From Artemia franciscana (taxonomy: Eukaryota > Arthropoda > Branchiopoda > Anostraca > Artemiidae): a DNA stretch of 64,000 nucleotides. Of the stretch, positions 1,592 to 63,702 are shown piece after piece. The notes beneath the pieces are model-generated. The model did not search any database, had not been told where the DNA came from, and saw only the letters and a list, made by a program, of their open reading frames with translations. Position numbers and translations under genes: made by a program. The stretch lies in assembly GCF_032884065.1 (NCBI RefSeq), contig NC_088881.1, positions 2,972,001 to 3,036,000 on the forward strand. Direction: 5' to 3'. Positions within the stretch are counted from its first letter, which is position 1. The number at the start of each line of letters is the position of its first letter.

Positions 1592-2035
1592 GACTACACA
1601 AGTAACCAAAAACTATTGCAGCGATCACATATCCCTTTTTACAATTTGGTGAGCTGAGCAATATTAAGCTTTCAAGCATAAGGTATAAGGTGGTATTATT
1701 ATTTTATGTTATTATTATTATCTTACGTATTTACATATTATTATTTTATGGGTATACCATTTTATGTATTAGTACTATGATATTATCGGAAATAAGAGTA
1801 TTTTTGTTTTCTATAGGCTCTTCTAAAAGAAACAGTAATAACCAAAAAGAAGTGCCAATTGATTCTATTGTCAACACTTTCCAAACATAATTGTTACTAC
1901 CGTGACAATGGGCAGCATATCCCACACCCTAGACGTGGCGTCAATTCACGTTTAATGATGTTGAGAGTAAAGATCACCATCTAGTAGTGTCTTTGGTTAA
2001 TTTAAAGCTAATTTCAAAAGTGTAACTAAATCCCG

Positions 2036-4142: not shown

Positions 4143-4380
4143 ATACTTGAGGTCTGCTTAGCGCAGGTCTCCTGAATCTATGCCTTTGGCCGGGTTTGTG
4201 GTTGGGGGCAAAATCCTCCGACGCTTCCCGTGCTTATCCCCCATACTCCAGGCACCCCATTTGGAGCTAGGCTTACAGAGTGACACCGCTAACCCCGTTC
4301 CAAACGAAATAACCAGGATTTGAACCCCGTCCTCACGAAAAAAGGCTTTCGAGTCTAGCATGCTAACCTGGTGAAGACGG
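4143..4380 (-). mobile_element. tRNA-Ser-like SINE (left copy)
   Basis: On the minus strand a tRNA-like head carries a perfect B box (GGTTCAAATCC, plus-strand 4316-4326). Upstream is an A-box-like segment with GGTTAGCATGCTAGACTCGA (plus-strand about 4351-4371). The GACTCGAAA stretch resembles the anticodon loop of tRNA-Ser(CGA). A non-tRNA body of about 170 bases follows toward 4143. It cannot be a working tRNA because the acceptor stem is absent. Pol III SINE is the best reading. Confidence 0.7.
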
Positions 4381-4387
4381 CTCTATG

Positions 4388-4640
4388 TTTCTTTTTATTA
4401 AATTACTTCAAAATATTTCTGTTTTTCAAAATCCGCCCCCTTCTCAATGGATGTCCCTGTGAGTGGCCGTACAGATGTGACATCAAATAGCGACGAAGAC
4501 CACACTGCCTCTCCATCACAAATATCAAAAAAAGAAGAACAATAGGAAATTCTTTTCGTTAGACATTGGAATTCTAATTTGAATGGATATTTCGGCCCTG
4601 TGCACAAGGGCCGTCTGTTTTTGAAATTTTTCTGTTAGTT
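4388..4640 (-). mobile_element. Penelope-like 3' end fragment with GC hairpin (left copy)
   Basis: On the minus strand a hairpin (GACGGCCC ... GGGCCGAAATAT, plus-strand about 4588-4616) is followed by a conserved stretch ending in GGCAGTGTGGTCTTCGTCG. The same pair of blocks follows the Penelope-like coding end at 11262-11876, which is why I assign the fragment to that family. Confidence 0.55.
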
Positions 4641-5034
4641 TTATTGGTCGCATGTCTTTTTAAGCATAAAGCTTTCCCCTCCAGTTATTTTTTTTTAGAT
4701 GTCGACTCCTGTGAATCATAAAAAAATAATAGACGCTACTTTTTCAGGTTCAAGGCTCTTTATAAAAGCAATGAATTACAGAATTTTATACATTTTTGCC
4801 GTTGGTGGGGAACAGCGCTGTATACCAACGATAAAAAACAATAACTACACCTTTTCAATGAAACAAAAATAACTAGTCTTGCCCGTAGGCTAGTTCTTAT
4901 TAAAGAAATAATATCGACATGCCATTCCGACCTACCGCCAACGCATGCCCATTTGAGACAATATTAACTTAATAACGTCAATTATCAGGCAACAGTGGGT
5001 ACAGCGACAAAATAATATGGAAAATATATTAAAA

Positions 5035-5050
<16 letters not shown>

Positions 5051-5110
<60 letters not shown>
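5051..5110. repeat. (AC)n/(TA)n microsatellite
   Basis: A short (AC)n run passes into about 29 TA repeats and ends at the start of the Helitron-related block. The matching run at 46778-46830 is shorter. Confidence 0.97.

Positions 5111-6165
<1,055 letters not shown>

Positions 6166-6223
<58 letters not shown>
6166..6223. repeat. (TA)n microsatellite flanking the Helitron 3' end
   Basis: The Helitron hairpin abuts this run directly, which suggests insertion into a pre-existing (TA)n tract. The partner run begins at 47898 and differs by a T at the junction. Confidence 0.95.
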
Positions 6224-6227
<4 letters not shown>

Positions 6228-6419
6228 ATTTGCTTTTAAAAATGTTGCTGGGTATTGCGCAGAGGGTAACGGCTGCTCGACTATGGTCAAAAAATGATTG
6301 AAAAGTGGTGGGAAAGTACTCTTCTAACAAAAAGAAAGTGCGTTTTCGTGCCTTTTTGTGTTTTTTTTTCAGTCATAAAAAATTAATTATTGTTTTTGTT
6401 TTTCAGAATAAGATTTGCC

Positions 6420-6507
6420 ATGGGACACACGGATCGGTGTCGGGTACAGACAGGATATCTCCTTGTGCTTTTTCTCTTCATAGTCGTAAAATCCAATGCG
6501 GATCAAG
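6420..6507 (+). CDS. Eph: Eph receptor, coding exon 1 (signal peptide), left copy
   Basis: ATG at 6420 opens 29 codons plus one base and stops at the donor gtaggc (6508). The peptide has a basic lead (MGHTDRCRVQ), a hydrophobic core (GYLLVLFLFIVV), and a likely cleavage site after KSNA, so it is a classic signal peptide. The last G joins TT of the next exon (8730) to make Val, giving DQVVLLDTT across the junction. The sequence tttttcag just before AATAAGATTTGCC (6407) looks like an acceptor, so a non-coding 5' exon may lie upstream. The exon is identical to 48147-48234. In this copy no third exon follows before the gap, so taken alone the copy is an incomplete gene. Confidence 0.8.
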
Positions 6508-8729
6508 GTAGGCAATTAAAATTACAATAAACTTTGTTATTTCTTGTGTGGTCACAAGAACTTAAGCATTTTCTGATGGTTTTTACTTTATTATTTTAAA
6601 TGCAATTAAATTTAAAAGTGCATCGATATGGTGAATTTGCGAATTTCACAGCGTGATAGTGTTAAGATTTTATTGTGATTTGGTGATATATGCTCTATAC
6701 TGGTTAGGATACAAAGGCTTTTACGACTATCTCAAAGTCAGACGGTATTTTGATTGAAGATAATGTGAGTATTCGATTGTAAATAAATGAAAAGAACAAC
6801 CTGAAATCCACTTAGAAAAGTCGCAAAAACCTTGGTCATATCCTGGAGCCTTTTCCAGTTAAGGAGTCAATAAGTTTAGGGAGTGTACGGATGATGGAGC
6901 TCCCTTTATTGAGAGGTCGTATACAAAGGTTTTGGAGTGTAAGATGATATAATAAATTATATATATTATAAATATATTATATATAATATATGATATAATA
7001 TAATAGCATAATAATAATAACTACATAATTATTCAATAATATTATTATTAATAATAATAATAGTTTTGATTTTGGAGAAATCTGGTACATCATTGCCGTC
7101 AGACCTAAAGGTGTGATGGCAAAATCTTTGCCATCAGGCTAAAGTGTCAAATCCGCCATTAGGAATACGGAGATAATTGCCAAAATCAGATTTGTTTTCA
7201 AAGGGGAGGGGGGTGAATGGGTTAATCTAGGCCAGAAAACACATCCTTTATTTGAGAATAGGTCCAAACAGTTTTTGACGATTATTTGATAATTATTGAA
7301 TTGCCAAATAGGAACTTCAGTGTAAGAAAAAATAGTCGTTTTCTGCACTAAACATTAGCGTAAATAAAAAAAGTCGTTTTTCTGTAAAATAGTACGAATT
7401 AAAAAAAAGTAGTATTTTGTTAATAATGTACCGTACGCATTTCTTGGAACAATCGTAATATTTTGAAATAAAATAAAATTTTGTTTTAAAACTATGACAA
7501 GCAAAAAACTCGATTTTTTCGTCTTTTGTCAAAAGACAATTTGAACCAACTAGTCGTAAATCAAGTAGGGGTACCGTATAATACAATAAAACAGGAGCTG
7601 CAAAATATACAAGCTACACAAACTAAAAAGGGTAATTCAAGAGAAAGCGATAAAGCTACTAATTGTATAGAAATGAACTTAAAAATTACAACTAAAACAA
7701 TTTTTTAACCATAAAAATTTATATTTAATAAATGAACCAATTCAGTATTATTTGATTGTGAATGTTGTTTTGAAGTGTGAAAATTTATATTATAATTCGT
7801 GTTCTATGTATAGAAGTAAGCGACTCAACTGGATGAGATGCGATAACGTGTACTAAAAAAGAAGTCACGTGCGCAATTGACATTTTTTTAAATTTCATCT
7901 TCAAAAAAAATATACATCTTTAAAAAATGTAATCCTGTTCTTTAACGTTATTTCCCCGTAGATAGTTCTACCAGTACTTATGTGTTATCCCGACCACACT
8001 CAAGTAGCTTAGCATAAGTGAAATAAACTACTATGCAGGTATATTTTAATTAAATATTTGATATATAGAGTTGGTTTGGTTAGTTATTTAATGTAATGCG
8101 TTCTGGACCGCATGCTTTCCTTAATTCGCTGTTGTACTTTCCTTAATTTTGTTACTAAAGCATTGCATTTTCATAAGATTATGATATATTTCATTATGAT
8201 TAGCCTAACTTTCATCCTTCTATCTTTATGTATTTTTATCTTTATATCTGTCCTCAGAAAAAAACAACTGAAAAGTAGTAAGTCAAAGACATTTCTCAAC
8301 CTTTGTCTCGCCTGAGAAGCCTCACCGAGATTTGCCTCGCCTCTGTCTGCATAGTCTAGAGAAATGCTTGAGCTTATGTTTTACATGAGTTACCGGGTAT
8401 TTACGCAAGAATGTATTCGGGGGAATGGGTAAGGGATACTAATGTAGACTATCACAGGTGCCAGTGGGGATGGAGGGCTGCTTCCTAGATTTTGTAAAAT
8501 ATGTTTTATGGTATTTTTGATGAAAAATGCATTATTTTGGTATTATCATTGAAAAAAAAACGAAAAATGTCCCCCGAGATGTTTAAATTTTGCCCCCAAT
8601 CCTTTACATCATTAGGTCGACGCCACTTTAAACTATACGAAAAACATCCTAAGATCTGCACCTCCACCCCTCTTGTTAACTTGTGTATATGATTTAGTCT
8701 TCAATTGGTACATTTCTTAATATTTTTAG
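6508..8729 (+). other. Intron 1 of Eph, left copy
   Basis: AT-rich, with a (TAA/TTA)-rich patch at about 6955-7070. From about 7970 to 8230 it holds part of an element related to the 325-bp MITE family (TACTTATGTGTTATC...CCACACTC, then AATGTAATGCGTTCTGGACC). I see no other gene. The same intron in the right copy is 48235-50450. Confidence 0.7.
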
Positions 8730-8809
8730 TTGTATTATTGGACACTACAAAAGAAGATACGTTAGATTGGACGAGATACCCCTTTGGACCCCTTTCATCA
8801 ACTCCAGGA
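8730..8809 (+). CDS. Eph: Eph receptor, coding exon 2 (start of ephrin-binding domain), left copy
   Basis: Eighty bases between the acceptor tatttttag and the donor gtaagt (8810). It completes a split Val codon and adds 26 codons that read VLLDTTKEDTLDWTRYPFG then PLSSTPG. LLDT...LxWxxYP is the start of the Eph ligand-binding domain in animal Eph receptors. It ends in phase 0, ready for an exon beginning W-I-E-E, which is found only in the right copy (54268). It is identical to 50451-50530. The downstream intron in this copy runs into the assembly gap. Confidence 0.85.
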
Positions 8810-10850
8810 GTAAGTTTATTTTTCTGTTCTATCGTCACTAGTTTTATTGAAATAGTAATCATTAGTTTATTTTTCAAAAAGAAAAAATCACCACTCAGCG
8901 TGCGCATACCATTTTCATTTTGTATTTGAAAAATATTATAGGCGCGAAATTCAATTTATTGAATTTCACTAGTTTTATTGAAATAATATTAGGTGTTTAG
9001 CAAAATGAATGTATACATATTTCAGGGATTCTTCTAAAAAAAATCCTAGTTTTAATTTTTAATTAATTGAAACTTGATTAAAGTAAAAATTTATATTTTT
9101 ACTTAAACCTCACGGGAGGTTTATTCCTAGGTTTGCTAGAGCATCCAGGATTTTTAATTTTTTCCCCACCATGCTTCAGGTGCATCTGGGGGCAAACTTT
9201 ATCCACCCGGACCAAAGATCTGCTCCTTAAGTTAAGATATTCTCCATAGTCTCCAAGACGGAGTAAAAAAAAAAAAACTTTCATCATCGTAAATTGTTCG
9301 TGGTAGTAATACCCTACTAATTAGTACCCTAACTTGGTATTATTTAGCACCCTCACTAGAACTACCCCTTCCGAAAACGAGATTTTTGTAAGCCCTGCAT
9401 AGGAACTAGATAACCCGCCCCGTTGCTTGGAATACGTCTCATCAATTGGTCTAATCTTTGTTCCTGTATCTTATATGGGCATGAAGATAATTAATTCTAC
9501 AATTAAATAATTAGATTTAGATACTACAATTAGATAATTAGTAGTTTCTGTTCTACGGAATCCGTTACATCTCTTTTTCTGTAGTGCTGAAATAGTTGGG
9601 ATACAAATTGTGTTTTTTTTCACAAATTTTGACACAAATTGTGTTTGTCTTACTTAGAAGGGTAGATGACAATACTTCTTGTACAATAACTGTCCGCCAA
9701 TTCCAATTGAAAAACTGAAAACTTACATTTGAATACATAGATACTAAATATATATATATTATAAGATACATAATTTTTAACGTACTGTCTTTTGAATTCC
9801 TCCAGTAGTCTCGTCTGCAACTGAAGTTTGTAAAAAAAAGTCATTTTTGGCAGGATTATTGTATCTTTGTATAAATAACCGTTTGTCAACAACAGTTAAA
9901 ACTTGTATTTCGGTTGGTATGTTCTAAATTTTAAAGTTTGTTACATATTGCTTTTTTTTGGGTTGTCTCATTCATATTGTCTATAGCTGAGATTTTTAAG
10001 TATGGAAAAGTTGTTTAAAATATTGTATTTCTGGTAAAAATAATTGTTCGTAAAAGATGATAGAAAAATGTAATGTGCACATTTGCAGTTCAGTAAAATT
10101 TATATTGTTGGACATACGAATTTGGAATTGAAACTGGAAATCTATAAAAATTACATTTTGACAGAAATATTACATGGGAGGTAATCCTAGTGTGAATTAG
10201 AATGTATTCCAATTGTCTTAAGGAATAAATTTTTCGATTTAAAGAATCTTCCCTTAAATTTAAAGAGACCAAGCCCCTAGATTAACTAGATGTCTTCAAT
10301 CGGGCAATGTGCTTTTATGGTTTGTATTGCGTTCAATTGTTTTATTGTATTAGACCGCCGTATATGGTAATTATACTGTTGAAGACTGTGATATACCCTT
10401 TGGTTAATTTGGCAATTAACCAAATTTACAATTGGTTACAAGTTTACAATTCTGAAATGTAAACTTGATGCCATATTCAGTTCGTCAGATCCACTTTTTT
10501 ATTTCAAACTACATGTTTTCTGCAGTTAATACATCATAGTCTTTTCTATTGTCCATGTATATTTTTTTTACATTTTTTTTTGGCGCAAAACTTAAGGGAG
10601 GGTTAAAGAAATAATTGAGTTACTACTCTTGAACACAATGATATATTTTTGTTGATTTGGCGCTAGTTTGGTTAGTTTTTATGTCAATTGTTTTAGCAAT
10701 TTGGTTATATCTCAATTGTTTCAACAATTTGTTTGATTTATATTTCAATTGTTTACACAATTTGGTTAATTTCGTTTCAGTTTTTTCAACGATTTCGAAA
10801 TATAAACTTGACGCCAGGTTCATTATTTTCTTTCTAATTGCATATTTTCT
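8810..10850 (+). other. Start of Eph intron 2, left copy, cut by the gap
   Basis: AT-rich, without a coding frame I trust. A small palindrome lies near 10402-10425 (GGTTAATTTGG/CAATTAACC). From 10655 to 10800 short CAATTGTTT-like motifs recur. The sequence stops at the N run. Confidence 0.6.
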
Positions 10851-10950
10851 NNNNNNNNNNNNNNNNNNNNNNNNNNNNNNNNNNNNNNNNNNNNNNNNNN
10901 NNNNNNNNNNNNNNNNNNNNNNNNNNNNNNNNNNNNNNNNNNNNNNNNNN
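10851..10950. other. Assembly gap (100 N)
   Basis: Exactly 100 undetermined bases, a common placeholder for a join of unknown length. Sequence before it is the end of the left duplicate. Sequence after it (10951 onward) does not match what follows the right duplicate at 52573. Confidence 0.99.
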
Positions 10951-33715: not shown

Positions 33716-33832
33716 ACCCTCTATATTATTTTGCTGACAATATCACGGTTTATACAGTTGTCCATGAACAGATATTATTATTTATTTTATATTATTTTGC
33801 TGACCCTATCAAGCTTCCTTGTTCCTACAAAT

Positions 33833-35250
33833 GAATTAATTGGAGATAGTCCAGTTGTCTAATGGCTGAATGACTAAGACTAAAGGTGCAAAACTAAGGA
33901 GCTACTAATCATCCAAACGAGGTTCTCGCGTCGAGAATCCAACTTCATCTTCAGTGATTAAGCTATCAAGAGAATTAACAAACTTCGGATTAGGAATTCA
34001 TTTCTCCTAAGAATGTACATCTCGCAGTTTTCATTTTGCCGCCCACAGCTCAATCGGATTCTATTTTTACAAGAAAGCTGGGTGTGATTCTTTGCTCGAA
34101 GAGCCTGCTACCGTCAGGGTTTCCACTGAATTAATTGGAGATAGTCCAGTTGTCTAATGGCTGAATGACTAAGAATAAAGGTGCAAAACTAAGGAGCTAC
34201 TAATCATCCAAACGAGGTTCTCGCGTCGAGAATCCAACTTCATCTTCAATGATTAAGCTATCAAGAGAGTTAACAAACTTCGGATTAGGAATTCATTTCT
34301 CCTAAGAATGTACATCTCGCAGTTTTCATTTTGCCACCCACAGCTCAATCGGATTCTATTTTTACAAGAAAGCGGGTGTGATGCTTTGCTCGAAGAGCCT
34401 GCTACCGTCAGGGTTTCCACTGAATTAATTGGAGATAGTCCAGTTGTCTAATGGCTGAATGACTAAGACTAAAGGTGCAAAACTAAGGAGCTACTAATCA
34501 TCCAAACGAGGTTCTCGCGTCGAGAATCCAACTTCATCTTCAATGACTAAGCTATCAAGAGAGTTAACAAACTTCGGATTGGGAATTCATTTCGCCTAAG
34601 AATGTACATCTCGCAGTTTTCATTTTGCCGCCCACAGCTCAATCGGATTCTATTTTTACAAGAAAGCTGGGTGTGATGCTTTGCTCGAAGAGCCTGCTAC
34701 CGTCAGGGTTTCCACTGAATTAATTGGAGATAGTCCAGTTGTCTAATGGCTGAATGACTAAGAATAAAGGTGCAAAACTAAGGAGCTACTAATCATCCAA
34801 ACGAGGTTCTCGCGTCGAGAATCCAACTTCATCTTCAATGACTAAGCTATCAAGAGAGTTAACAAACTTCGGATTGGGAATTCATTTCGCCTAAGAATGT
34901 ACATCTCGCAGTTTTCATTTTGCCGCCCACAGCTCAATCGGATTCTATTTTTACAAGAAAGCTGGGTGTGATGCTTTGCTCGAAGAGCCTGCTACCGTCA
35001 GGGTTTCCACTGAATTAATTGGAGATAGTCCAGTTGTCTAATGGCTGAATGACTAAGAATAAAGGTGCAAAACTAAAAAGCTACTAATCATCCAAACGAG
35101 GCTCTCGCGTCGAGATTCAAACTTCGTATTGGAAATTCATTTCTCCTCAGAATATACATCTCGCAGTTTTCCTTTTGCCGCCCACAGCTCAATCAGATTC
35201 TATTTTCCTGTACGAGAAAGCTGGGTGTGATTCTTTGCTCGAATAACCTG
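33833..35250 (+). repeat. Tandem array of ~295-bp units (about 5)
   Basis: GAATTAATTGGAGATAGTCC recurs at 33833, 34128, 34422, 34717 and 35012. The first four units are nearly identical and the last is diverged with an internal deletion. Each unit holds TGGCTGAATGACTAAGACTA and, about 70 bases on, GGTTCTCGCGTCGAGAATCC, which resemble the A- and B-box regions of a Leu/Ser-type tRNA. This could be a tRNA-derived SINE amplified in tandem. Confidence 0.93.
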
Positions 35251-35270
35251 TTTCCACCTTTGGCTCGAAA

Positions 35271-36310
35271 CTGCTATTTTAGCACTATTTCATTATGTGT
35301 AGCACTATAGAACGTTATCAGGGTTGCCATTTGTAGTATAAAAGTGCTATTCTAGCACTATTTCATTATGTGTAGCACTATAGAACGTTATCAGGGTTGC
35401 CATTTGTAGTATAAAAGTGCTATTCTAGCACTATTTCATTATGTGTAGCACTATAGAACGTTATCAGGGTTGCCATGTGTAGTATAAAAGTGCTATTCTA
35501 GCACTATTTCATTATGTGTAGCACTATAGAACGTTATCAGGGTTGCCATTTGTAGTATAAAAGTGCTATTCTAGCACTATTTCATTATGTGTAGCACTAT
35601 AGAACGTTATCAGGGTTGTCATGTGTAGTATAAAAGTGCTATTCTAGCACTATTTCATTATGTGTAGCACTATAGAACGTTATCAGGGTTGCCATTTGTA
35701 GCATAAAAGTGCTATTCTAGCACTATTTCATTATGTATAGCACTATAGAACGTTATCAGGGTTGCCATGTGTAGTATAAAAGTGCTATTCTAGCACTATT
35801 TCATTATGTGTAGCACTAGAGAACGTTATCAGGGTTGCCATTTGTAGCATAAAAGTGCTATTCTAGCACTATTTCATTATGTGTAGCACTATAGAACGTT
35901 ATCAGGGTTGCCATGTGTAGTATAAAAGTGCTATTCTAGCACTATTTCATTATGTGTAGCACTATAGAACGTTATCAGGGTTGCCATTTGTAGCATAAAA
36001 GTGCTATTCTAGCACTATTTCATTATGTGTAGCACTATAGAACGTTATCAGGGTTGCCATGTGTAGTATAAAAGTGCTATTCTAGCACTATTTCATTATG
36101 TGTAGCACTATAGAACGTTATCAGGGTTGCCATTTGTAGTATAAAAGTGATATTTTAGCACTATTTCATTATGTGTAGCACTATAGAACGTTATCAGGGT
36201 TGCCATTTGTAGCATAAAAGTGCTATTCTAGCACTATTTCATTATGTGTAGCACTATAGAACGTTATCAGGGTTGCCATTTGTAGTATAAAAGTGCTATT
36301 TTAGCACTAT
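35271..36310. repeat. Tandem array of 73-bp units (about 14)
   Basis: AACGTTATCAGGGTTGCCAT recurs every 73 bases from 35311 to about 36259, with one 72-base unit. Each unit contains the hairpin AGTGCTA-TTC-TAGCACT. Two variants differ at TTTGTAGTA versus TGTGTAGTA/TTTGTAGCA and partly alternate. Confidence 0.95.
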
Positions 36311-38584: not shown

Positions 38585-38880
38585 GCTATAATATATCGCT
38601 TTCTTAATGAAATTTGATATTTAGAAGGACCTTGTGTCTCAGATCTTTTCTTAAATCCTGACCAGATCCAGTGACATCGGGGGGAGTTGGAGGAAGAAAC
38701 CAGAAATCTTGGAAAATGCTTAGAGTGGAGAGATAGCGATGATACTTGATGGGAAGGATAAACACAAGTCCTAGATACGTGATTGACTTAGCCGGACTGG
38801 ATTGGATCTCTTTGGGGGAGTTGGGAGGGGGATCAATTCGGAAAAATTTGAAAAATTGGGGTGTTTTTTACTTACGAACC
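38585..38880 (+). repeat. Large tandem-structured repeat element, one-unit fragment
   Basis: One body unit of the elements at 11099, 13571 and 25713: AATGAAATTTGATATTTAGA, then CAGTGACATCGGGGGGAG, then ATACGTGATTGACTTAGCC. Both ends are absent. Confidence 0.7.
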
Positions 38881-39094
38881 CGAAGTTTTGTTATCTGACG
38901 CTTGAACTATGTTTAACGAAAGGGCTATCTCAAACAATCTTTATCATATGGTTCATGGGAAAAAGAGGTTGGGGGGTAGTTGCCCCCCCTCTTTTGTCTC
39001 TTAATCTAATCTCTTTTGTCTCTTAAAAAGTGAACTAGAATTTTCAATATGTAATCAAATCCTCTCTGAGGCTTATACGAGCATCCCTATTTCA

Positions 39095-41383: not shown

Positions 41384-42971
41384 TTGTGCAAATATATAAT
41401 AACTCCATAACGGTGAGTTTGCGGTAATTTTGCAAGAGAGAAAAGATGTTCCAAAAGTCAAAATGCATTTATTAACAGTAGTTTCAAGACCCTAAACAAT
41501 TGTTCAGGTAATAGGGACATTGCCCATAATTTTTTCTCCTAATTATTGGAATGCCAACGCCCCTGGATGTATCGCCCAAATTATATATTTTTTGTTGATG
41601 TTGTTATATTTTTTTTGTTATATTTTTTTTTTGTTGATGTGTTATATATATTTTTGTTGTTTTATATAAAAAATTATATATTTTTTCCCCGTTTTATTTG
41701 AAGAAAATTGGTAGTCCAATGGCATCATTTTGAAGTAAAGTAGGCCTACTAGTGCTTATAGCCTATTTTTTCATACTCAATTCAGATAGGCTATAGAATA
41801 TGTTTTTTTTTTTTGGGGGGGGGGGGGGGGAAGTTAGCCTAGCCTAGGAGTTTAGTTCGATAAAGGAAATTTTTGGTATTTTCTCTTGTAGCCTAGAATT
41901 GGGGCTGTATGAAGAAAACAATTCTTCGTTGATAATCCGCAGAAAAATCGTATTTAATATATTTTGACTGCAATTCCACAGTACCCCCCTTCTAATGTGC
42001 AAATATATAGCCTAGCCCATATGGTATAAGCCTAGAATTGGGGTAAATATATGACTGTCCATATTATTGACTTACCAATAAAGTGAACATACCACTTGAT
42101 GCCTTTTTTTATGCTCTTTACGAATATATTAATCGCTTCTATCGCAAGTTCAAATTTAAGCACTTTTTGACCTAATCTAACCCAACCTAACCTTATTATA
42201 AATAATTTTGGCACTGAGAAAATGTTGTATTATTTTGTAGATAACTCATACTTTAATTGCAAATTCGTCATTTTTCGATAAAAGCCATTCTTTTTATTCG
42301 GAAAGAGCATAAAGGTATTGAGCGGTATGTTCACTTTATTGGTAAGTCAGTAATATGGAATGTTACATTTATCCCGGTTTTCATGGTCTTTATACCAGAC
42401 AACATTAACTTCGGCTCGATGGGAAACTATATTATTTTAGTTAGTATTTTGGGTAGACTAGTTAAGGTTACATATTTAATATAATGCAGTCTGGGCGGCC
42501 CCCTTTCCATAATTTTTTGTTATAGTTTTCATAATATTGTTGATAAAGTATTAAATTTTCATCATATTTTGTTTTATTTCATTAGCATTAACCAAACTTC
42601 ACTTCTCGACAGAACTTGAGTGTGGTGGCTATAAGACACAAATACTGATTTTTAAAGAAATCAGACAGGCCGTCAATGTCTATCTATAGAAAGTTGCTTA
42701 TTTTTGTGAGTTTGAATTCTTAATGTTGTTTGTAGGCTATGTCATCAACAGTTGGTTCTTAATGTGGAATATTGCTAAAGTGTTTAATTTTTCGCAATTT
42801 AATTTGCGAATCTTAGAAATTTCTTTTTGTCTCAAATATCATATGGGAAGCTAAACTGGCTTTGCTCGCCAAGAATGCCCTCATAAACCTAGGCTATGTG
42901 TACGCCTTTACCAAATTATAAATATACAGCTGCCTATTTGCAGCCAAAAGTGCATAAAGACGATATTTGTG

Positions 42972-43318
42972 TATTATACACCACTCACTCAAGTTCACGC
43001 TGTGTAAAACTAGAGAACAAACCGGTTTCTTCGTTAGTTTCTTTCAGCTTAGCATGAGACAAGTGACAGAATAGGTGGAAAATATACAATTTGGGCTATA
43101 TATTTGCATATTAGGGGGGAGGGGAGGTAAAGTGTTTGAACAGGAAACCAATTGGTACTTCATAATATGGGGAATAATTGGACCTTACACATTTTGCATG
43201 CAGACCCGCTATGCTTTAATTCCCCCTAATTTGCATCAAATTTGTTTTTAAAGTAACAATGGAACCGGTTTTTTCTCGAGTTTTACACAGCGTAAACTTG
43301 AGTGAGTGGTGTATAATA
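42972..43318. mobile_element. MITE, 347 bp, with ~40-bp terminal inverted repeats (right copy)
   Basis: Counterpart of the element at 1245-1591, with the same inverted ends and interior, carried along by the long duplication. Confidence 0.85.
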
Positions 43319-43762
43319 GACTACACAAGTAACCAAAAACTATTGCAGCGATCACATATCCCTTTTTACAATTTGGTGAGCTGAGCAATATTAAGCTTTC
43401 AAGCATAAGGTATAAGGTGGTATTATTATTTTATGTTATTATTATTATCTTACGTATTTACATATTATTATTTTATGGGTATACCATTTTATGTATTAGT
43501 ACTATGATATTATCGGAAATAAGAGTATTTTTGTTTTCTATAGGCTCTTCTAAAAGAAACAGTAATAACCAAAAAGAAGTGCCAATTGATTCTATTGTCA
43601 ACACTTTCCAAACATAATTGTTACTACCGTGACAATGGGCAGCATATCCCACACCCTAGACGTGGCGTCAATTCACGTTTAATGATGTTGAGAGTAAAGA
43701 TCACCATCTAGTAGTGTCTTTGGTTAATTTAAAGCTAATTTCAAAAGTGTAACTAAATCCCG

Positions 43763-45058
43763 GGGAGGTATGATGTTGATATACTTCAGGATGAGAACCT
43801 GAGAGAAACTTTCCTGGAACAGTTGAATACTAAACTTGAGAGTTTAAAATTTGTTAACGTGGAAGATGGTTGGAATAATTTTAGAAGAAAAACAATTTCG
43901 AAGTTGCAGGTGGTGTCTTAGGGGAAAAGTCAGGACTGCAGATGGGAATATTAGTGAAAAAGCTTTATGTTTAATAGAGAGGAGAAGGGGCTTGTACAAG
44001 AACTGTCTGTGGAGAAAGCATTAAAATATGAACTAAGGATGTCTGAAGTGGAGGACATGGATAAAATTGCCGAGGCATTGGAAGACGCAGCTAGACGGCA
44101 TAATAGTAAAATTGTACTGGTATGTTAATAAATTGAGAGGGAGTAGTCGATCCGGACTTGTCCCAGTTAAAGATAGGAACAGGGTTACAAGTGAAAAGGA
44201 AAGAGATGAACCGAACGTTTTGAGAATTTGCTAAACCGAGATAGATTTGCAGAAAAAGATATACAGATAAATAAAAAAGTTTTATGATACCCTGAATATG
44301 AAGGAACATTTGCTTTATGATGAAGAATTATCAACAGTACTAAAAGGATTAAAAAATAATAAGGCTCCAGGTGCTAATATTGTGGTAAATGGGTGAGGTT
44401 AGAAATAAGTTACTAAAGATTACGAATATGATTTTTGAAAGAGGGGAAGTACCTAACGATTTTAGGAAAACTTTAATTAAATCATTGTGTAAGAAAGGCA
44501 ATAAGAGTGAGTGTGGTAATTATCGAGGCATTAGTCTGGTCCCTATAGGTAGTAAATTACTTATTAATATGTTACTTTTTAGACTGAGAGATGTTGTTGA
44601 CATGACAAAAAGGTGGAGGATGTGTCGACCAAATTTTCACTTTTAAGTTAAGAATTGAGAAGTGCCTGAGTTGTCAAATACCTTTGGTCTTCAGTTGTAT
44701 AGATTATGAACAAGCGTTAGATTCTATTGATAGAAAAGCCTTAGCAAAGGCCCTATCCTTGTATGGTATATCATATAAATATACTAAAGTGATTAGTGCT
44801 ATTTACGAGAATAACACTGCTGCGGTTAAGGTAGGAAATGAGGTTAGCAGCTGGTTTTGTATTAAACCAGGATTTAAGCAGGGTTGTGTTGTTTCCCCCT
44901 TTATATGGATAATTTTGATGAACTTTTTCTTAAGGAGCGCACGAAAGGCAATGTGAGACCACGGAATTAAATTGGACGTAGATTATGCTGATGATTTAAG
45001 CATCCTAGATGAAAGTGGGAGCAAAATGAATGAACTTTTAGAGGTGTGCTTCTTGCAA
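43763..45058 (+). pseudogene. Degraded non-LTR retrotransposon ORF2, reverse-transcriptase region (right copy)
   Basis: Same RT blocks as 2036-3330: fingers at 44389-44646, palm at 44684-44956, then the DYADDL motif. A one-base insertion near 43890 adds a frameshift in the linker that the left copy lacks, and a few bases differ near 44030-44040. It is inactive for the same reasons. Confidence 0.9.
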
Positions 45059-45870
45059 AATAAATTCATGTATGCATTCATTAGTCAGAAAAACTAAAGC
45101 TTTGACATGGGGGGATGGCTAAAAACTAGGTTCAGGAAGATTGCTATGTGAATTTCTATAGTCTTTCATCTAGCATCTGTAGAAAAGGCCCTAGTTTGGC
45201 GTCATTTTTCTATTTAATTTTGAAGTTTTATTTTGGTATTATAACGTACATCTGCGGATTTTTTTGGGCTAAAATTACATGTTTCTGGCTTGAATAGTTA
45301 GGTTGTTGACTCATTGCACAGACAGGGATGGATTGTACACTCAAAAAGGTTCTTTTATAACTTTTTATAACATTATCCTAAATCGTGTCCTATCCTGCAC
45401 TGTCTCCGCTTATTTGCAATGAATTGTTTAATTGCTTGTGTGATCATGTCTTGAATTCTTTTTTGTGTATTGATTTCAACTTTAATTTTAGGTTTGCCAT
45501 TATCTGATCAAAGACTTAGGATTGATTCCCTGTAATAAGAGACGTGAATAAGAAGCAAAAAAAAGTCTGAAAAACCTGTTTTGTTTTTGGCTATCAAATG
45601 CTAAATTTTCGAAACAAGTTTTTGCTTGCTTTGATTAACGGAGTCACATTTTTGATAGGCAGATTATCCAATGCTTCAATTCTAGTTCCTGTGAGATTGT
45701 TATGACAGGTTGGCAGTGATAATTCTATATGGGGCATTTTTTTTTTCTTTACTAACCAGTCTTGTCAATTCGCAGAAATGAAGGAGGGAATAAAAATTGC
45801 AAAATATATGGAGAGAACTTCGTGCTGTCTTCATCTACAATGGAAATAGAAAAAATGCATTTTCGCATGC

Positions 45871-46108
45871 ATACTTGAGGTCTGCTTAGCGCAGGTCTCC
45901 TGAATCTATGCCTTTGGCCGGGTTTGTGGTTGGGGGCAAAATCCTCCGACGCTTCCCGTGCTTATCCCCCATACTCCAGGCACCCCATTTGGAGCTAGGC
46001 TTACAGAGTGACACCGCTAACCCCGTTCCAAACGAAATAACCAGGATTTGAACCCCGTCCTCACGAAAAAAGGCTTTCGAGTCTAGCATGCTAACCTGGT
46101 GAAGACGG
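45871..46108 (-). mobile_element. tRNA-Ser-like SINE (right copy)
   Basis: Duplicate of the SINE at 4143-4380, with the same B box and anticodon-loop-like segment on the minus strand. Confidence 0.7.
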
Positions 46109-46115
46109 CTCTATG

Positions 46116-46368
46116 TTTCTTTTTATTAAATTACTTCAAAATATTTCTGTTTTTCAAAATCCGCCCCCTTCTCAATGGATGTCCCTGTGAGTGGCCGTAC
46201 AGATGTGACATCAAATAGCGACGAAGACCACACTGCCTCTCCATCACAAATATCAAAAAAAGAAGAACAATAGGAAATTCTTTTCGTTAGACATTGGAAT
46301 TCTAATTTGAATGGATATTTCGGCCCTGTGCACAAGGGCCGTCTGTTTTTGAAATTTTTCTGTTAGTT
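46116..46368 (-). mobile_element. Penelope-like 3' end fragment with GC hairpin (right copy)
   Basis: Duplicate of 4388-4640, with the same hairpin and conserved downstream block on the minus strand. Confidence 0.55.
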
Positions 46369-46762
46369 TTATTGGTCGCATGTCTTTTTAAGCATAAAGC
46401 TTTCCCCTCCAGTTATTTTTTTTTAGATGTCGACTCCTGTGAATCATAAAAAAATAATAGACGCTACTTTTTCAGGTTCAAGGCTCTTTATAAAAGCAAT
46501 GAATTACAGAATTTTATACATTTTTGCCGTTGGTGGGGAACAGCGCTGTATACCAACGATAAAAAACAATAACTACACCTTTTCAATGAAACAAAAATAA
46601 CTAGTCTTGCCCGTAGGCTAGTTCTTATTAAAGAAATAATATCGACATGCCATTCCGACCTACCGCCAACGCATGCCCATTTGAGACAATATTAACTTAA
46701 TAACGTCAATTATCAGGCAACAGTGGGTACAGCGACAAAATAATATGGAAAATATATTAAAA

Positions 46763-46777
<15 letters not shown>

Positions 46778-46830
<53 letters not shown>
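46778..46830. repeat. (TA)n microsatellite, right copy
   Basis: Shorter than its partner at 5051-5110. Confidence 0.97.

Positions 46831-47897
<1,067 letters not shown>

Positions 47898-47951
<54 letters not shown>
47898..47951. repeat. (TA)n microsatellite flanking the Helitron 3' end, right copy
   Basis: Partner of 6166-6223, with an extra T at the junction. Confidence 0.95.
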
Positions 47952-47954
<3 letters not shown>

Positions 47955-48146
47955 ATTTGCTTTTAAAAATGTTGCTGGGTATTGCGCAGAGGGTAACGGC
48001 TGCTCGACTATGGTCAAAAAATGATTGAAAAGTGGTGGGAAAGTACTCTTCTAACAAAAAGAAAGTGCGTTTTCGTGCCTTTTTGTGTTTTTTTTTCAGT
48101 CATAAAAAATTAATTATTGTTTTTGTTTTTCAGAATAAGATTTGCC

Positions 48147-48234
48147 ATGGGACACACGGATCGGTGTCGGGTACAGACAGGATATCTCCTTGTGCTTTTT
48201 CTCTTCATAGTCGTAAAATCCAATGCGGATCAAG
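48147..48234 (+). CDS. Eph: Eph receptor, coding exon 1 (signal peptide)
   Basis: ATG at 48147, then 29 codons plus one base to the donor gtaggc. It has a basic N-terminus, a run of Leu/Val/Phe/Ile, and a small-residue site SNA before DQ, marking a secreted or type I membrane protein. An acceptor-like tttttcag 13 bases before the ATG suggests the start codon lies in the second exon of the transcript. The exon has no visible homology on its own. Its assignment rests on the phase-1 junction that produces DQ-V-VLLDTT with exon 2. Identical to 6420-6507. Confidence 0.82.
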
Positions 48235-50450
48235 GTAGGCAATTAAAATTACAATAAACTTTGTTATTTCTTGTGTGGTCACAAGAACTTAAGCATTTTC
48301 TGATGGTTTTTACTTTATTATTTTAAATGCAATTAAATTTAAAAGTGCATCGATATGGTGAATTTGCGAATTTCACAGCGTGATAGTGTTAAGATTTTAT
48401 TGTGATTTGGTGATATATGCTCTATACTGGTTAGGATACAAAGGCTTTTACGACTATCTCAAAGTCAGACGGTATTTTGATTGAAGATAATGTGAGTATT
48501 CGATTGTAAATAAATGAAAAGAACAACCTGAAATCCACTTAGAAAAGTCGCAAAAACCTTGGTCATATCCTGGAGCCTTTTCCAGTTAAGGAGTCAATAA
48601 GTTTAGGGAGTGTACGGATGATGGAGCTCCCTTTATTGAGAGGTCGTATACAAAGGTTTTGGAGTGAAAGATGATATAATAAATTATATATATTATAAAT
48701 ATATTTATAATATATGATATAATATAATAGCATAATAATAATAACTACATAATTATTCAATAATATTATTATTAATAATAATAATAGTTTTGATTTTGGA
48801 GAAATCTGGTACATCATTGCCGTCAGACCTAAAGGTGTGATGGCAAAATCTTTGCCATCAGGCTAAAGTGTCAAATCCGCCATTAGGAATACGGAGATAA
48901 TTGCCAAAATCAGATTTGTTTTCAAAGGGGGGGGGGTGAATGGGTTAATCTAGGCCAGAAAACATCCTTTATTTGAGAATAGGTCCAAACAGTTTTTGAC
49001 GATTATTTGATAATTATTGAATTGCCAAATAGGAACTTCAGTGTAAGAAAAAATAGTCGTTTTCTGCACTAAACATTAGCGTAAATAAAAAAAGTCGTTT
49101 TTCTGTAAAATAGTACGAATTAAAAAAAAGTAGTATTTTGTTAATAATGTACCGTACGCATTTCTTGGAACAATCGTAATATTTTGAAATAAAATAAAAT
49201 TTTGTTTTAAAACTATGACAAGCAAAAAACTCGATTTTTTCGTCTTTTGTCAAAAGACAATTTGAACCAACTAGTCGTAAATCAAGTAGGGGTACCGTAT
49301 AATACAATAAAACAGGAGCTGCAAAATATACAAGCTACACAAACTAAAAAGGGTAATTCAAGAGAAAGCGATAAAGCTACTAATTGTATAGAAATGAACT
49401 TAAAAATTACAACTAAAACAATTTTTTAACCATAAAAATTTATATTTAATAAATGAACCAATTCAGTATTATTTGATTGTGAATGTTGTTTTGAAGTGTG
49501 AAAATTTATATTATAATTCGTGTTCTATGTATAGAAGTAAGCGACTCAACTGGATGAGATGCGATAACGTGTACTAAAAAAGAAGTCACGTGCGCAATTG
49601 ACATTTTTTTAAATTTCATCTTCAAAAAAAATATACATCTTTAAAAAATACAATCCTGTTCTTTAACGTTATTTCCCCGTAGATAGTTCTACCAGTACTT
49701 ATGTGTTATCCCGACCACACTCAAGTAGCTTAGCATAAGTGAAATAAACTACTATGCAGGTATATTTTAATTAAATATTTGATATATAGAGTTGGTTTGG
49801 TTAGTTATTTAATGTAATGCGTTCTGGACCGCATGCTTTCCTTAATTCGCTGTTGTACTTTCCTTAATTTTGTTACTAAAGCATTGCATTTTCATAAGAT
49901 TATGATATATTTCATTATGATTAGCCTAACTTTCATCCTTCTATCTTTATGTATTTTTATCTTTATATCTGTCCTCAGAAAAAAACAACTGAAAAGTAGT
50001 AAGTCAAAGACATTTCTCAACCTTTGTCTCGCCTGAGAAGCCTCACCGAGATTTGCCTCGCCTCTGTCTGCATAGTCTAGAGAAATGCTTGAGCTTATGT
50101 TTTACATGAGTTACCGGGTATTTACGCAAGAATGTATTCGGGGGAATGGGTAAGGGATACTAATGTAGACTATCACAGGTGCCAGTGGGGATGGAGGGCT
50201 GCTTCCTAGATTTTGTAAAATATGTTTTATGGTATTTTTGATGAAAAATGCATTATTTTGGTATTATCATTGAAAAAAAAACGAAAAATGTCCCCCGAGA
50301 TGTTTAAATTTTGCCCCCAATCCTTTACATCATTAGGTCGACGCCACTTTAAACTATACGAAAAACATCCTAAGATCTGCACCTCCACCCCTCTTGTTAA
50401 CTTGTGTATATGATTTAGTCTTCAATTGGTACATTTCTTAATATTTTTAG
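48235..50450 (+). other. Eph intron 1
   Basis: Starts gtaggc and ends tatttttag. Contents as in the left copy: a TAA-rich patch at 48680-48790 and a partial MITE at about 49690-49950. No further exon seen. Confidence 0.75.
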
Positions 50451-50530
50451 TTGTATTATTGGACACTACAAAAGAAGATACGTTAGATTGGACGAGATAC
50501 CCCTTTGGACCCCTTTCATCAACTCCAGGA
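50451..50530 (+). CDS. Eph: Eph receptor, coding exon 2 (start of ephrin-binding domain)
   Basis: Eighty bases bounded by tatttttag and gtaagt. It encodes VLLDTTKEDTLDWTRYPFG then PLSSTPG. The Eph binding domain typically opens with LLD(T/S), a variable stretch, then LxWxxYP and a turn before the W that starts the next strand. Here that W is the first residue of exon 3. The exon is far too short to stand out as an open frame. Identical to 8730-8809. Confidence 0.87.
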
Positions 50531-53500
50531 GTAAGTTTATTTTTCTGTTCTATCGTCACTAGTTTTATTGAAATAGTAATCATTAGTTTATTTTTCAAAA
50601 AGAAAAAATCACCACTCAGCGTACGCATACCATTTTCATTTTGTATTTGAAAAATATTATAGGCGCGAAATTCAATTTATTGAATTTCACTAGTTTTATT
50701 GAAATAATATTAGGTGTTTAGCAAAATGAATGTATACATATTTCAGGGATTCTTCTAAAAACAAATCCTAGTTTTAATTTTTAATTAATTGAAACTTGAT
50801 TAAAGTAAAAATTTATATTTTTACTTAAACCTCACGGGAGATTTACTCCTAGGTTTGCTAGAGCATCCAGGATTTTTAATTTTTTCCCCACCATGCTTCA
50901 GGTGCATCTGGGGGCAAACTTTATCCACCCGGACCAAAGATCTGCTCCTTAAGTTAAGATATTCTCCATAGTCTCCAAGACGGAGTAAAAAAAAAAAAAC
51001 TTTCATCATCGTAAATTGTTCGTGGTAGTAATACCCTACTAATTAGTACCCTAACTTGGTATTATTTAGCACCCTCACTAGAACTACCCCCTTCCGAAAA
51101 CGAGTTTTTTGTAAGTTCTGCATAGGAACTAGATAACCCGCCCCGTTGCTTGGAATACGTCTCATCAATTGGTCTAATCTTTGTTCCTGTATCTTATATG
51201 GGCATGAAGATAATTAATTCTACAATTAAATAATTAGATTTAGATACTACAATTAGATAATTAGTAGTTTCTGTTCTACGGAATCCGTTACATCTCTTTT
51301 TCTGTAGTGTTGAAATAGTTGGGATACAAATTGTGTTTTTTTTTCACAAATTTTGACACAAATTGTGTTTCTCTTACTTAGAAGGGTAGATGACAATACT
51401 TCTTGTACCAATAACTGTCCGCCAATTCCAATTGAAAAACTGAAAACTTACATTTGAATACATAGATACTAAATATATATATATTATAAGATACATAATT
51501 TTTAACGTACTGTCTTTTGAATTCCTCCAGTAGTCTCGTCTGCAACTGAAATTTGTAAAAAAAAGTCATTTTTGGCAGGATTATTGTATCTTTGTATAAA
51601 TAACCGTTTGTCAACAACAGTTAAAACTTGTATTTCGGTTGGTATGTTCTAAATTTTAAGGTTTGTTACATATTGCTTTTTTTGGGTTGTCTCATTCATA
51701 TTGTCTATAGCTGAGATTTTTAAGTATGGAAAAGTTGTTTAAAATATTGTATTTCTTGTAAAAATAATTGTTCGTAAAAGATGATAGAAAAATGTAATGT
51801 GCACATTTGCAGTTCAGTAAAATTTATATTGTTGGACATACAAATTTGGAATTGAAACTGGAAATCTATAAAAATTACATTTTGACAGAAATATTACATG
51901 GGAGGTAATCCTAGTGTGAATTAGACTGTATTCCAATTGTCTTAAGGAATAAATTTTTCGATTTAATGAATCTTGCTTTAAATTTAAAGAGACCAAGCCC
52001 CTAGATTAACTAGATGTCTTCAATCGGGCAATGTGCTTTTATGGTTTGTATTGCATTCAATTGTTTTATTGTATTAGACCGCCGTATATGGTAATTATAC
52101 TCTTGAAGACTGTGTAATACCCTTTGGTTAATTTGGCAATTAACCAAATTTACAATTGGTTACAAGTTTACAATTCTGAAATGTAAACTTGATGCCATAT
52201 TCAGTTCGTCAGCTCCACTTTTTATTTCAAACTACATGTTTTCTGCAGTTAATACATCATAGTCTTTTCTATTGTCCATGTATTTTTTTTTACATTTTTT
52301 TGGGGTGCAAAACTTAAGGGAGGGTTAAAGAAATAATTGAGTTACTACTCTTGAACACAATGATATATTTTTGTTGATTTGGCGCTAGTTTGGTTAGTTT
52401 TTATGTCAATTGTTTTAGCAATTTGGTTATATCTCAATTGTTTCAACAATTTGTTTGATTTATATTTCAATTGTTTACACAATTTGGTTAATTTCGTTTC
52501 AGTTTTTTCAACGATTTCGAAATATAAACTTGACGCCAGGTTCATTATTTTCTTTCTAATTGCATATTTTCTTCAACTAATACATCGCCGTCCTTACTAT
52601 TGTCGTATAAATATGGTTTAATTGTTTGGAGTGAAACTTAAGGGGAAGGGTTAAAGAAATAATTGAATTATATGAAGGGCTGTTTAACAATGTCCAAATT
52701 CTGTATATTAATAGGTAGGAAAAACGATTCAATTATGGTTGCAGGGATACCTGCAACTTAGTAAAGAGCGAATGACGACCCATAATAACCAAAAGTTTAC
52801 AAGTATGTTTAGAAAACTGTCTGGTGAGAAAAAATTTCCATTTGAAGCTGATACAGGAATGATAACTATTGTTTCAATTAACCGAAAATGGCTTTGGATC
52901 GAAACGAAAAGTTCACCATTAACTATCGTCGAAAACCCCATAAAGGAAACTTAGTGTTCCCAACCCTGAATACCAATCATTTTTGCATGGGTAGCACTGA
53001 TGTGTCTTTAAAAGCTAATTTTTATTTCGTTATTTGTGCAATATATATGCAATATCGGATCAAATAAACTAAGTCGTACTGTTTCCCTAAATTTGTAGAA
53101 TTCCGAAAAACTAGCGCTTTACTGAAAACTGATCTTACGTGAGGTTTTGAGAGCATTAAAAATTGGAGGTTGTCTAAATATATTTCTAGAGATGTAATAG
53201 CTGTTATGGCAAAAAAATCTGATTGGGCATGAACGTGTGGTACTTAGTTCAGTTTATTCATATGATGATCAAAGAAAGTAATGAAGGGATACCATAGACC
53301 TGAGAAGATACTAAAATTCCCTTATTTCATGGCCCTCGGAAGACTGTTGAGAGCCTTATGAGTTAATTTATCAGCTTCCGTAGAGTACTTATTCTCTTTT
53401 CTTAATCGTATTTTTCAATAAACCAATATTTTTTCGGAATTCTGCAAATTCAGGGAGATATTACAAGTCAATTTATTTTGAACCAATATCGTAGGTGTAT

Positions 53501-54267
53501 GTTGCATAAACTGTGAGGCTAATAGTTTTTGTTCATTTAATCTCTGCTCTTTACTTCTACAGGGAAACAATTTTTTAATTAATTGAGTTAGACCGCTGTA
53601 TATGGTTATTGGATTCTTGAGGATTGCGTTGTAACCCTTTGTTATTTTTCGCTGTTAAACTATTCTAAATGTAAAATTGGTACCATGTTTAGTTCTTCAG
53701 GTTCTCTGTTTTCTTTCAAGTTATTAGTTATTCGGCAATTATCGTATCATGTTTTATTTCTATAGTTCATAGGTGACAGTTAAACGGAGGGGTATTTAAA
53801 AAAAGGCGAACTATATGAAAGAATATAAAGTAATATTCACAATCACAAGAATTGTTCCTCTATTTTCTTTCGGATAATCCTGTATTTTCCTGTTGTCCCT
53901 ATATTGTATGGGCAAAGGAGGGACAGAGAGGTCAGAAGAGTTTTCATTTCTTCTCTATATTTTTTATCCCTCATCCTCTAGATTCTCAAAAATATCTTTT
54001 TTGGTATTTTCATTGAAAAAAGCAAGAGATTTTGACAAAAAAAACTCTTGGATTTTGATAAATTGCATCCCCCCCTACAATGCCATGTACTGATGTCACT
54101 GAGGAGAGCTATTTACAAATAGGCGACTTACATTAAATAACTTGAGGCAATATTTACAGGCGAGTATAAGCCTAAAGGCCTTCCTATTTAAATGTTCTTG
54201 TCCAGTTTGGGGATGTACTATTTTTCATATATTTTATCTTGGATTAATTTGAATTTTACTTTTGCAG
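50531..54267 (+). other. Eph intron 2
   Basis: 3.7 kb, from gtaagt to ttttgcag. 50531-52572 is duplicated at 8810-10850, and the rest is single-copy in the window. It holds the possible retropepsin-like remnant at 52745-52954 and otherwise no feature I can name. Confidence 0.8.
52745..52954 (+). pseudogene. Possible retropepsin-like remnant in Eph intron 2
   Basis: A 69-codon frame after gttgcag reads GYLQLSKERMTTHNNQKFTS, then KKFPFEADTGMITIVSINRK, and later SSPLTIVEN before TAG. F-E-A-D-T-G followed by hydrophobic residues and, about 18 residues on, SPLT resembles the active-site strand and following region of retrotransposon aspartic proteases. No RT or integrase lies nearby, so at most this is a relic. 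It could equally be an unrelated exon or chance. Confidence 0.3.
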
Positions 54268-54597
54268 TGGATCGAAGAAAGTTTTACAAATTTTGAGAAA
54301 GGAATAAATTGGCGATCATATGTGGTGTGCGATGTGGCATATAATAATGTGAATAATTGGTTGTGGACCCCTTTTGTCGAAAGGGGCGAAGCTAATAGAA
54401 TCTATATCGAAGTGAAATTTTCAATGCGTGATTGTAATCTATTTCCTGGCACTGCGCTTTCGTGTAAGGAAACATTTAGTCTTTTGTATTATGAATTTGA
54501 CGCAGCAACAAGGGAACCCCCTCCATGGGAGCCGGAGAGTTATAAGCTGATTGACAGAATTGCTGCGGACGAAGGAAGATTCACCTCTTCAAATGAG
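54268..54597 (+). CDS. Eph: Eph receptor, coding exon 3 (core of ephrin-binding domain)
   Basis: Exactly 110 codons between ttttgcag (ends 54267) and gtaagt (54598), phase 0 at both ends. Landmarks of the Eph ligand-binding domain appear in order: SYVVCDV, NNWLWTPFV, RIYIEVKFSMRDC, LSCKETFSLLYYEFD, and LIDRIAADEGRF. The three Cys (in VVCDV, MRDC and SCKETF) match domain cysteines that form its disulfides; the partner of the first lies in the next exon. The jelly-roll domain binds the ephrin loop outside the cell. Compared with the family about 40 residues of the domain are still missing after SSNE, to be supplied by an exon beyond 64000. This exon occurs once in the window, which matters for the duplication. 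Confidence 0.94.
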
Positions 54598-61912: not shown

Positions 61913-62793
61913 TCCACAGAACGCACTCCAGTCATCTCAGTCTTTCTCTCATTATAACCCTAGATAGTGGGACTGGACCACACCTTTAGTACAGTCTACT
62001 GTTTGAAATGCAGCCAGTCAATTGGGTACCTAATTTCCCTGGGAAATATCTAGCACCCAAGAAGTATAGCTTTTTTATAATAGTTGTTCCTATTTAAACT
62101 TTTAAATCCATATAATATCTATTTAAACTAAGCCGCGCTTGGTATGCAAAATGTTTCATTGTTTATAGTGTACGCAAGGACCTTGGGACTGAGGGCCCCC
62201 TGGACTGGAATATGAAGATTCAAAATACATTTCAATATTTTATTTTCCATTGAATATAAATTGCCTGTGTTTTGTTGAAGATGCCCCCCCCCCGAAACGT
62301 TGGGTTTTATTATTTCTTATGTATTTCCATGCATTTTGAAAGCTTATCGAATTTAATATTCAGTGAAATGAATGCTGATAAATGAAAATTTTTGCTAATA
62401 AACTGAATATTCAGTTGAAGAAGTATAGGTAAAACTATTGAAAATTGTTTGCTTTTAAGTTTTAGGGGGAGGGTGAACGAATTGCCCTTTATCCCCTTAG
62501 ATGCTCGCTTGTGCTTGTTTAGCGTGTATATACCCTTATAGCAGGATATATGTGCATACAAGAGAGCTGGGGAGGAGTGGTTCGGTTTTTTGAAGGAGCG
62601 GACGGATCTAAGTACGATTATATCCATGAATTCATTGAGATAATAGAATCGATTTTACTGTATTTCCTAGTTTGCCTTAAAAAATTGGGAAATAGTTGTG
62701 AAATTATTAAGAATAATTTTGTTTGGATAAAGGAGCTTTTTGGAGACAGCTTGTATTTGTAAACAATTCCTTCTATTTATAGTAGTTTATAGT
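61913..62793. other. Unassigned
   Basis: AT-rich. A 70-codon plus frame at 62550-62762 has no recognisable motif. Confidence 0.45.
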
Positions 62794-63702
62794 AGCTTGG
62801 TGCTGCGGTGAGTTGTTAGTAGTAGTAGTATTTATAGTAGGTTGGTGCTGCGGTGAGTTGTTAGTAGTAGTAATATTTATAGTAGCTTGGTGCTGCGGTG
62901 AGTTGTTAGTAGTAGTAGTATTTATAGTAGCTTGGTGCTGCGGTGAGTTGTTAGTAGTAGTAGTATTTATAGTAGCTTGGTGCTGCGGTGAGTTGTTAGT
63001 AGTAGTAGTATTTATAGTAGCTTGGTGCTGCGGTGAGTTGTTAGTAGTAGTAGTATTTATAGTAGCTTGGTGCTGCGGTGAGTTGTTAGTAGTAGTAGTT
63101 GTATTTATAGTAGCTTGGTGCTGCGGTGAGTTGTTAGTATTAGTAGTATTTATAGTAGCTTGGTGCTGCGGTGAGTTGTTAGTAGTAGTAGTATTTATAG
63201 TAGCTTGGTGCTGCGGTGAGTTGTTAGTAGTAGTAGTAGTATTTATAGTAGCTTGGTGCTGCGGTGAGTTGTTAGTAGTAGTAGTAGTATTTATAGTAGC
63301 TTGGTGCTGCGGTGAGTTGTTAGTAGTAGTAGTATTTATAGTAGCTTGGTGCTGCGGTGAGTTGTTAGTAGTAGTAGTATTTATAGTAGCTTGGTGCTGC
63401 GGTGAGTTGTTAGTAGTAGTAGTAGTATTTATAGTAGCTTGGTGCTACGGTGAGTTGTTAGTAGTAGTAGTATTTATAGTAGCTTGGTGCTGCGGTGAGT
63501 TGTTAGTAGTAGTAGTAGTATTTATAGTAGCTTGGTGCTGCGGTGAGTTGTTAGTATTAGTAGTATTTATAGTAGCTTGGTGCTGCGGTGAGTTGTTAGT
63601 AGTAGTAGTAGTAGCTTGGTGCTGCGGTGAGTTGTTAGTAGTAGTAGTATTTATAGTAGCTTGGTGCTGCGGTGAGTTGTTAGTAGCAGTATTTATAGCA
63701 GT
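62794..63702 (+). repeat. Minisatellite, ~45-bp units, ~20 copies
   Basis: Unit: AGCTTGGTGCTGCGGTGAGT, TGTTAGTAGTAGTAGTATTT, ATAGT. Lengths vary mainly by number of GTA triplets, with one deletion near 63600. Because almost every length is a multiple of three, frames stay open on both strands (308 codons at 62813-63739 and over 100 on the minus strand). The translated repeat (FIVAWCCGELLVVVV) is not a protein. The unit equals a LINE ORF2 end plus its TAG-repeat tail. Confidence 0.93.

Follow-up and report, generated by a model that had tools for sequence, protein, structure and literature searches.

The question raised by this locus is whether three short exons on scaffold C19 of the Artemia franciscana assembly (1.27 Gb in 6468 contigs) form the beginning of an ordinary Eph receptor gene, and whether the second copy of two of them, lying across an assembly gap, belongs to the animal or to the assembly. 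The window, C19:2972001-3036000, is the whole stretch of 64,000 nucleotides that was analysed, and the gene and both copies of the repeated block described below lie on its plus strand. Coding exon 1 (window 48147-48234, C19:3020147-3020234, 88 nt) carries the start codon and the signal peptide and ends in phase 1 at the donor gtaggc. Exon 2 (window 50451-50530, C19:3022451-3022530, 80 nt), in which the ligand-binding domain begins, runs from phase 1 to phase 0 between an acceptor ending in ttttag and the donor gtaagt, and exon 3 (window 54268-54597, C19:3026268-3026597, 330 nt), which encodes the bulk of the ephrin-binding domain, is in phase 0 at both ends and lies between an acceptor ending in ttgcag and a second gtaagt donor. 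The first-pass annotation had placed these exons correctly in coordinates and length, with GT-AG junctions present, and the in-phase joining that it described was found as well (phases 0 to 1, 1 to 0, 0 to 0), as was every motif that it quoted from the translation (VVCDV, NNWL, MRDC, SCKETF and IAADE).

A profile search of the 166-residue peptide from the three joined exons matched the Pfam family Ephrin_lbd (PF01404) with an E value of 1.1e-38 and 133.5 bits, and the peptide starts, as judged by eye, like a signal peptide, with the hydrophobic stretch YLLVLFLFIVV and then SNA/DQ, so that the proposed combination of a signal peptide and an ephrin-binding domain was borne out. Exon 3 by itself gave 119.5 bits (E = 2.1e-34), indicating that exons 1 and 2 contribute 14 bits, and PF01404 was the sole Pfam family listed for it at E <= 1, with no other family fitting this exon better. 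The description of the gene as hidden was therefore too strong, since exon 3 alone is recovered by an ordinary profile search. Among solved structures, all 36 matches to the exon 1-3 peptide at E <= 0.001 were Eph receptors, the best being EphB2 (E = 4.7e-25). Upstream of the start codon, window 48134-48146 is the putative end of the 5' UTR as read from the sequence, and an acceptor-like AG at 48132-48133, just upstream, suggests a non-coding 5' exon upstream of 48134.

Further exons had been expected past position 64000, and 11 more coding exons were found there, in order and on the same strand, giving a predicted gene of 14 coding exons that spans C19:3020147-3185098, about 165 kb of the scaffold. 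The later domains were located by Eph-like queries against sequence up to C19:3236000. Consensus queries covering the remainder of the ligand-binding domain had no hit among the 60 matches listed, all of which belonged to the cysteine-rich query; exon 4 (C19:3052935-3053271), which also matches PF01404, starts 26.3 kb after exon 3, outside the window, and joins it in phase. It is followed in the final model by exon 5 (C19:3068635-3068790, 156 nt, donor CAC/GTAAGT), exon 6 (C19:3087040-3087212) and exon 7 (C19:3101898-3102333) and, after the two short exons discussed below, by exon 10 (C19:3154004-3154413), exon 11 (C19:3166597-3166806), exon 12 (C19:3175390-3175568), exon 13 (C19:3177601-3177759) and exon 14 (C19:3184825-3185098). 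A first model of the junction between exons 5 and 6 was dropped for its wrong donor and non-AG acceptor, and a canonical junction was used instead. All 13 predicted introns, the longest of which reach 32.6 kb, are GT-AG with fitting phases, and the predicted coding sequence of 3012 nt has one terminal stop and encodes a protein of 1003 residues.

Two short exons were placed by scanning. The transmembrane exon 8 (C19:3134953-3135064, 112 nt) was the sole candidate in its 51.7-kb interval, where the reverse strand gave 0. Over the full 264 kb the same scan gave five plus-strand and seven minus-strand candidates, and the other four on the plus strand all lie within the 45-bp tandem array near the end of the window. 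The juxtamembrane exon 9 (C19:3141179-3141246, 68 nt) is one of three candidates whose phase fits, against two in the reverse-strand control, so that the scan by itself cannot set it apart; it was picked on the grounds that its peptide, KKQPSDCDALEYRNGD, resembles Eph juxtamembrane segments. A phase 2-to-2 alternative for this exon, with one candidate, was left unused. With the kinase-side exon only, the Pfam transmembrane family is matched at 53.7 bits (positions 45-73); the draft protein with both short exons reaches 73.9 bits (positions 1-73), an improvement that supports the pair and, together with the resemblance of its peptide, places exon 9 in the model.

The predicted protein has the complete Eph order of signal peptide, ligand-binding domain, cysteine-rich domain, two fibronectin III domains, transmembrane segment, juxtamembrane tyrosines, kinase and SAM domain. 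The full-protein Pfam run, made on a draft of 1005 residues where the final model has 1003, listed 15 families. Those above their cut-offs in the draft included Ephrin_lbd at the N-terminus (PF01404, E = 2e-55, covering positions 1-176 of 176), Ephrin_CRD (PF25599, E = 3.3e-17), fn3 in two stretches (E = 4.3e-25), EphA2_TM (PF14575, E = 1.7e-20), PK_Tyr_Ser-Thr (PF07714, E = 2.9e-97) and SAM_2 (E = 2.9e-18); SAM_1 gave E = 1.7e-16. In the same draft, two narrower models scored below their cut-offs, SAM_EPH (22.3 bits, cut-off 27) and Ephrin_rec_like (PF07699, 21.5, cut-off 23.1), and a phosphatase N-terminal family came weakly over its own cut-off in the fibronectin region (33.7 vs 30). The kinase motifs VAIKT, HRDLAARN and DFG are intact, the juxtamembrane tyrosines lie in YVDPHTYEDP at residue 614, and cysteines 77, 112, 122 and 193 fit the two disulfides of Eph ligand-binding domains. 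The best solved kinase match was EphA4 (E = 4.4e-150), and among the best 60 of 129 structure matches the top 43 were Eph receptors. On the predicted protein, the gene is almost certainly an Eph receptor, and its full domain layout indicates an ordinary one.

A six-frame search of the genome with PF01404 gave two matches, with both of its two candidates scored, and these are exons 3 and 4 of the predicted gene; the search scores the best candidates only, and a very diverged extra Eph copy could escape it. A search with EphA2_TM gave one match among 10 candidates scored, at C19:3154042, within the same gene. By these searches the predicted gene is the only Eph receptor gene found in the genome. 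The ephrin family likewise gave one match, an exon (L028) on the minus strand at C1:30372271-30372456 that reads CRITNPNPRIIAVCDKPNKLMYFTITFRSFTPQPGGLEFRPGQDYYFI. The single TAG in this match directly precedes VSKEEYDSC, where the frame opens, and resembles the acceptor of this exon, and a gene for an ephrin ligand is likely to be present in the genome.

What the first-pass annotation overlooked is that the 5' end of the gene occurs twice, on either side of a gap in the assembly. A second copy of coding exon 1 lies at window 6420-6507 (100% identity over 148 nt) and one of coding exon 2 at window 8730-8809 (100% identity over 140 nt), both on the plus strand and both with identical 30-nt flanks; exon 1 with its flanks occurs at two places genome-wide, namely window 6420-6507 and 48147-48234. 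They belong to a large repeated block with two copies, here A and B; an assembly gap, exactly 100 N long (window 10851-10950), lies between them. Copy A reaches its 3' end in the window (1-10850), its final base directly adjoining the gap, and copy B (window 10951-52572), collinear with C19:2934712-2982850, starts at the first base after it. In an alignment of 10865 columns, window 1-10850 and 41728-52572 are 99.39% identical, with 31 mismatches and 15 gap openings. Copy A extends leftwards beyond the window through C19:2934712-2972000, collinear with window 10951-41727, in three long blocks of 98.8-99.2% identity and shorter ones of 95.9-98.0% around tandem arrays. In all, the 48,139 bases that end at the gap overlap the 41,622 bases that directly follow it.

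The copies differ in a segment of about 8.1 kb, C19:2961232-2969318, that is found in copy A only and has its counterpart at window 38880-39028; as the alignment reads, this is an insertion or deletion difference between the copies. The segment is built in part of repeats that occur elsewhere in the region. Two tandem arrays, one with a 295-bp unit in 4.4 copies (window 33832-35125) and one with a 73-bp unit in 14.3 copies (35268-36310), lie where the alignment offset between the copies changes, by 335 and 949 bases, suggesting that array length differs between them. Each copy also holds one reverse transcriptase fragment (PF00078, E = 1.7e-9), at window 2878-3228 and 44606-44956.

These results bear on three readings of the locus. 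As long as three exons alone were seen inside the window, with exon 1 recognizable merely as a signal peptide, they might have been a decayed Eph fragment, that is, a pseudogene, or a chance set of open reading frames; with 11 further exons in order, with frame, splice sites and catalytic motifs intact, and with no other Eph ligand-binding domain found in the genome search, the probability of this is close to nil. The second copy of exons 1 and 2 is, on the layout of the sequence, very probably an assembly artefact, as indicated by block edges that fall exactly at both edges of the 100-N gap and by an identity of about 99% in the long blocks. The exons at 6420-8809 would then most likely represent the second haplotype of this locus, which the assembly failed to merge where the contigs join, and most likely not a second gene. 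The alternative is that the block of 41-48 kb is a real tandem duplication, which would give the gene its first two coding exons twice, possibly as alternative first exons or promoters. The copies do share one orientation and one 36.5-Mb scaffold, they differ by about 1% and by the 8.1-kb segment, exon 1 with its flanks is present twice in the genome, and a tandem duplication that was split where its copies meet would show an identical layout. Against this stand the coincidence of both block edges with the gap edges, the fact that exons 1 and 2 and the 30 nt flanking them are fully identical in both copies, and the gap itself, which is typical of false duplications (Ko et al. 2022, PMC9516828), and we regard a real duplication as improbable.

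Ko et al. (2022, PMC9516828) count a gap that lies between the members of a duplicated pair on a single scaffold as a primary mark of false duplication, with read depth and k-mers as further marks, and the false duplications that they describe are likewise near-identical copies on one scaffold across a gap, with exons gained. A real tandem duplication would leave the identity of the gene as an Eph receptor unchanged. That the only Eph gene found really has its 5' end duplicated in tandem, with two sets of first exon and promoter, is more doubtful still; if true, the two promoter sets could drive one receptor in different tissues. The joint reading of an ordinary Eph receptor 5' end and an artefactual second copy of exons 1 and 2 is also very probable, although as a conjunction it is a trace less certain than either part. 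With 41-48 kb of sequence standing on both sides of the gap, an automatic annotation could give this assembly two Eph 5' ends or a spurious second Eph gene, and the probable false duplication is worth flagging to users of the assembly.

The view that this is the only recognizable host gene in the 64 kb is plausible, with one reservation. Past base 10950 there are 568 stop-to-stop open reading frames of at least 40 residues, the Eph exon included, and of the 14 non-Eph frames of the window that were run against Pfam, only the reverse transcriptase fragment, in both copies, passed a cut-off. On a rough codon score trained on the Eph gene, five non-Eph frames rank above exon 3, one of them a tandem array and the other four with no Pfam match, and unrecognized exons in the window are therefore possible. 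A tRNA search of the window found none, and an Rfam search of the window gave no match at gathering score. The 45-bp tandem array (20 copies, window 62780-63691) holds a plus-strand frame of 317 residues and two minus-strand frames, which were rejected as a gene for their low complexity. Elsewhere in the genome, TTAGG arrays are long and abundant (overlapping 40-base matches: 21325 forward and 10639 reverse, with 0 and 0 for the control), a repeat content that suggests an arthropod genome. One such array on C1, near 2592354-2592927, lies 2.6 Mb inside the scaffold and is either an interstitial telomere-type repeat or a scaffolding error.

Judging from its family, the predicted receptor would sit in the cell membrane, where its N-terminal domain would bind ephrin on a neighbouring cell and this contact would cluster the receptors. 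The clustered kinase would be expected to phosphorylate the juxtamembrane tyrosines of YVDPHTYEDP and downstream partners, and the SAM domain, perhaps with the C-terminal FLV, may aid assembly. The outcome would be adhesion or repulsion, with cells usually repelling one another or forming a boundary.

The Eph gene is a further invertebrate member of a well-known family, to which this prediction adds one more receptor. In domain order, kinase motifs, the two juxtamembrane tyrosines and the SAM domain, it agrees with the Eph receptor tyrosine kinases of other animals (Drosophila Eph, vertebrate EphA and EphB), and no function-altering difference from known Eph receptors was seen in the predicted protein. 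One structural difference is that the long exon 3 of vertebrate Eph genes, of about 664 nt, is here 330 + 337 nt with an intron between. Drosophila has a single Eph and a single ephrin, and the one Eph gene and one ephrin exon found here are a Drosophila-like complement. In Mellott and Burke (2008, PMC2405795), non-chordate and cephalochordate Ephs form a clade separate from the vertebrate Ephs.
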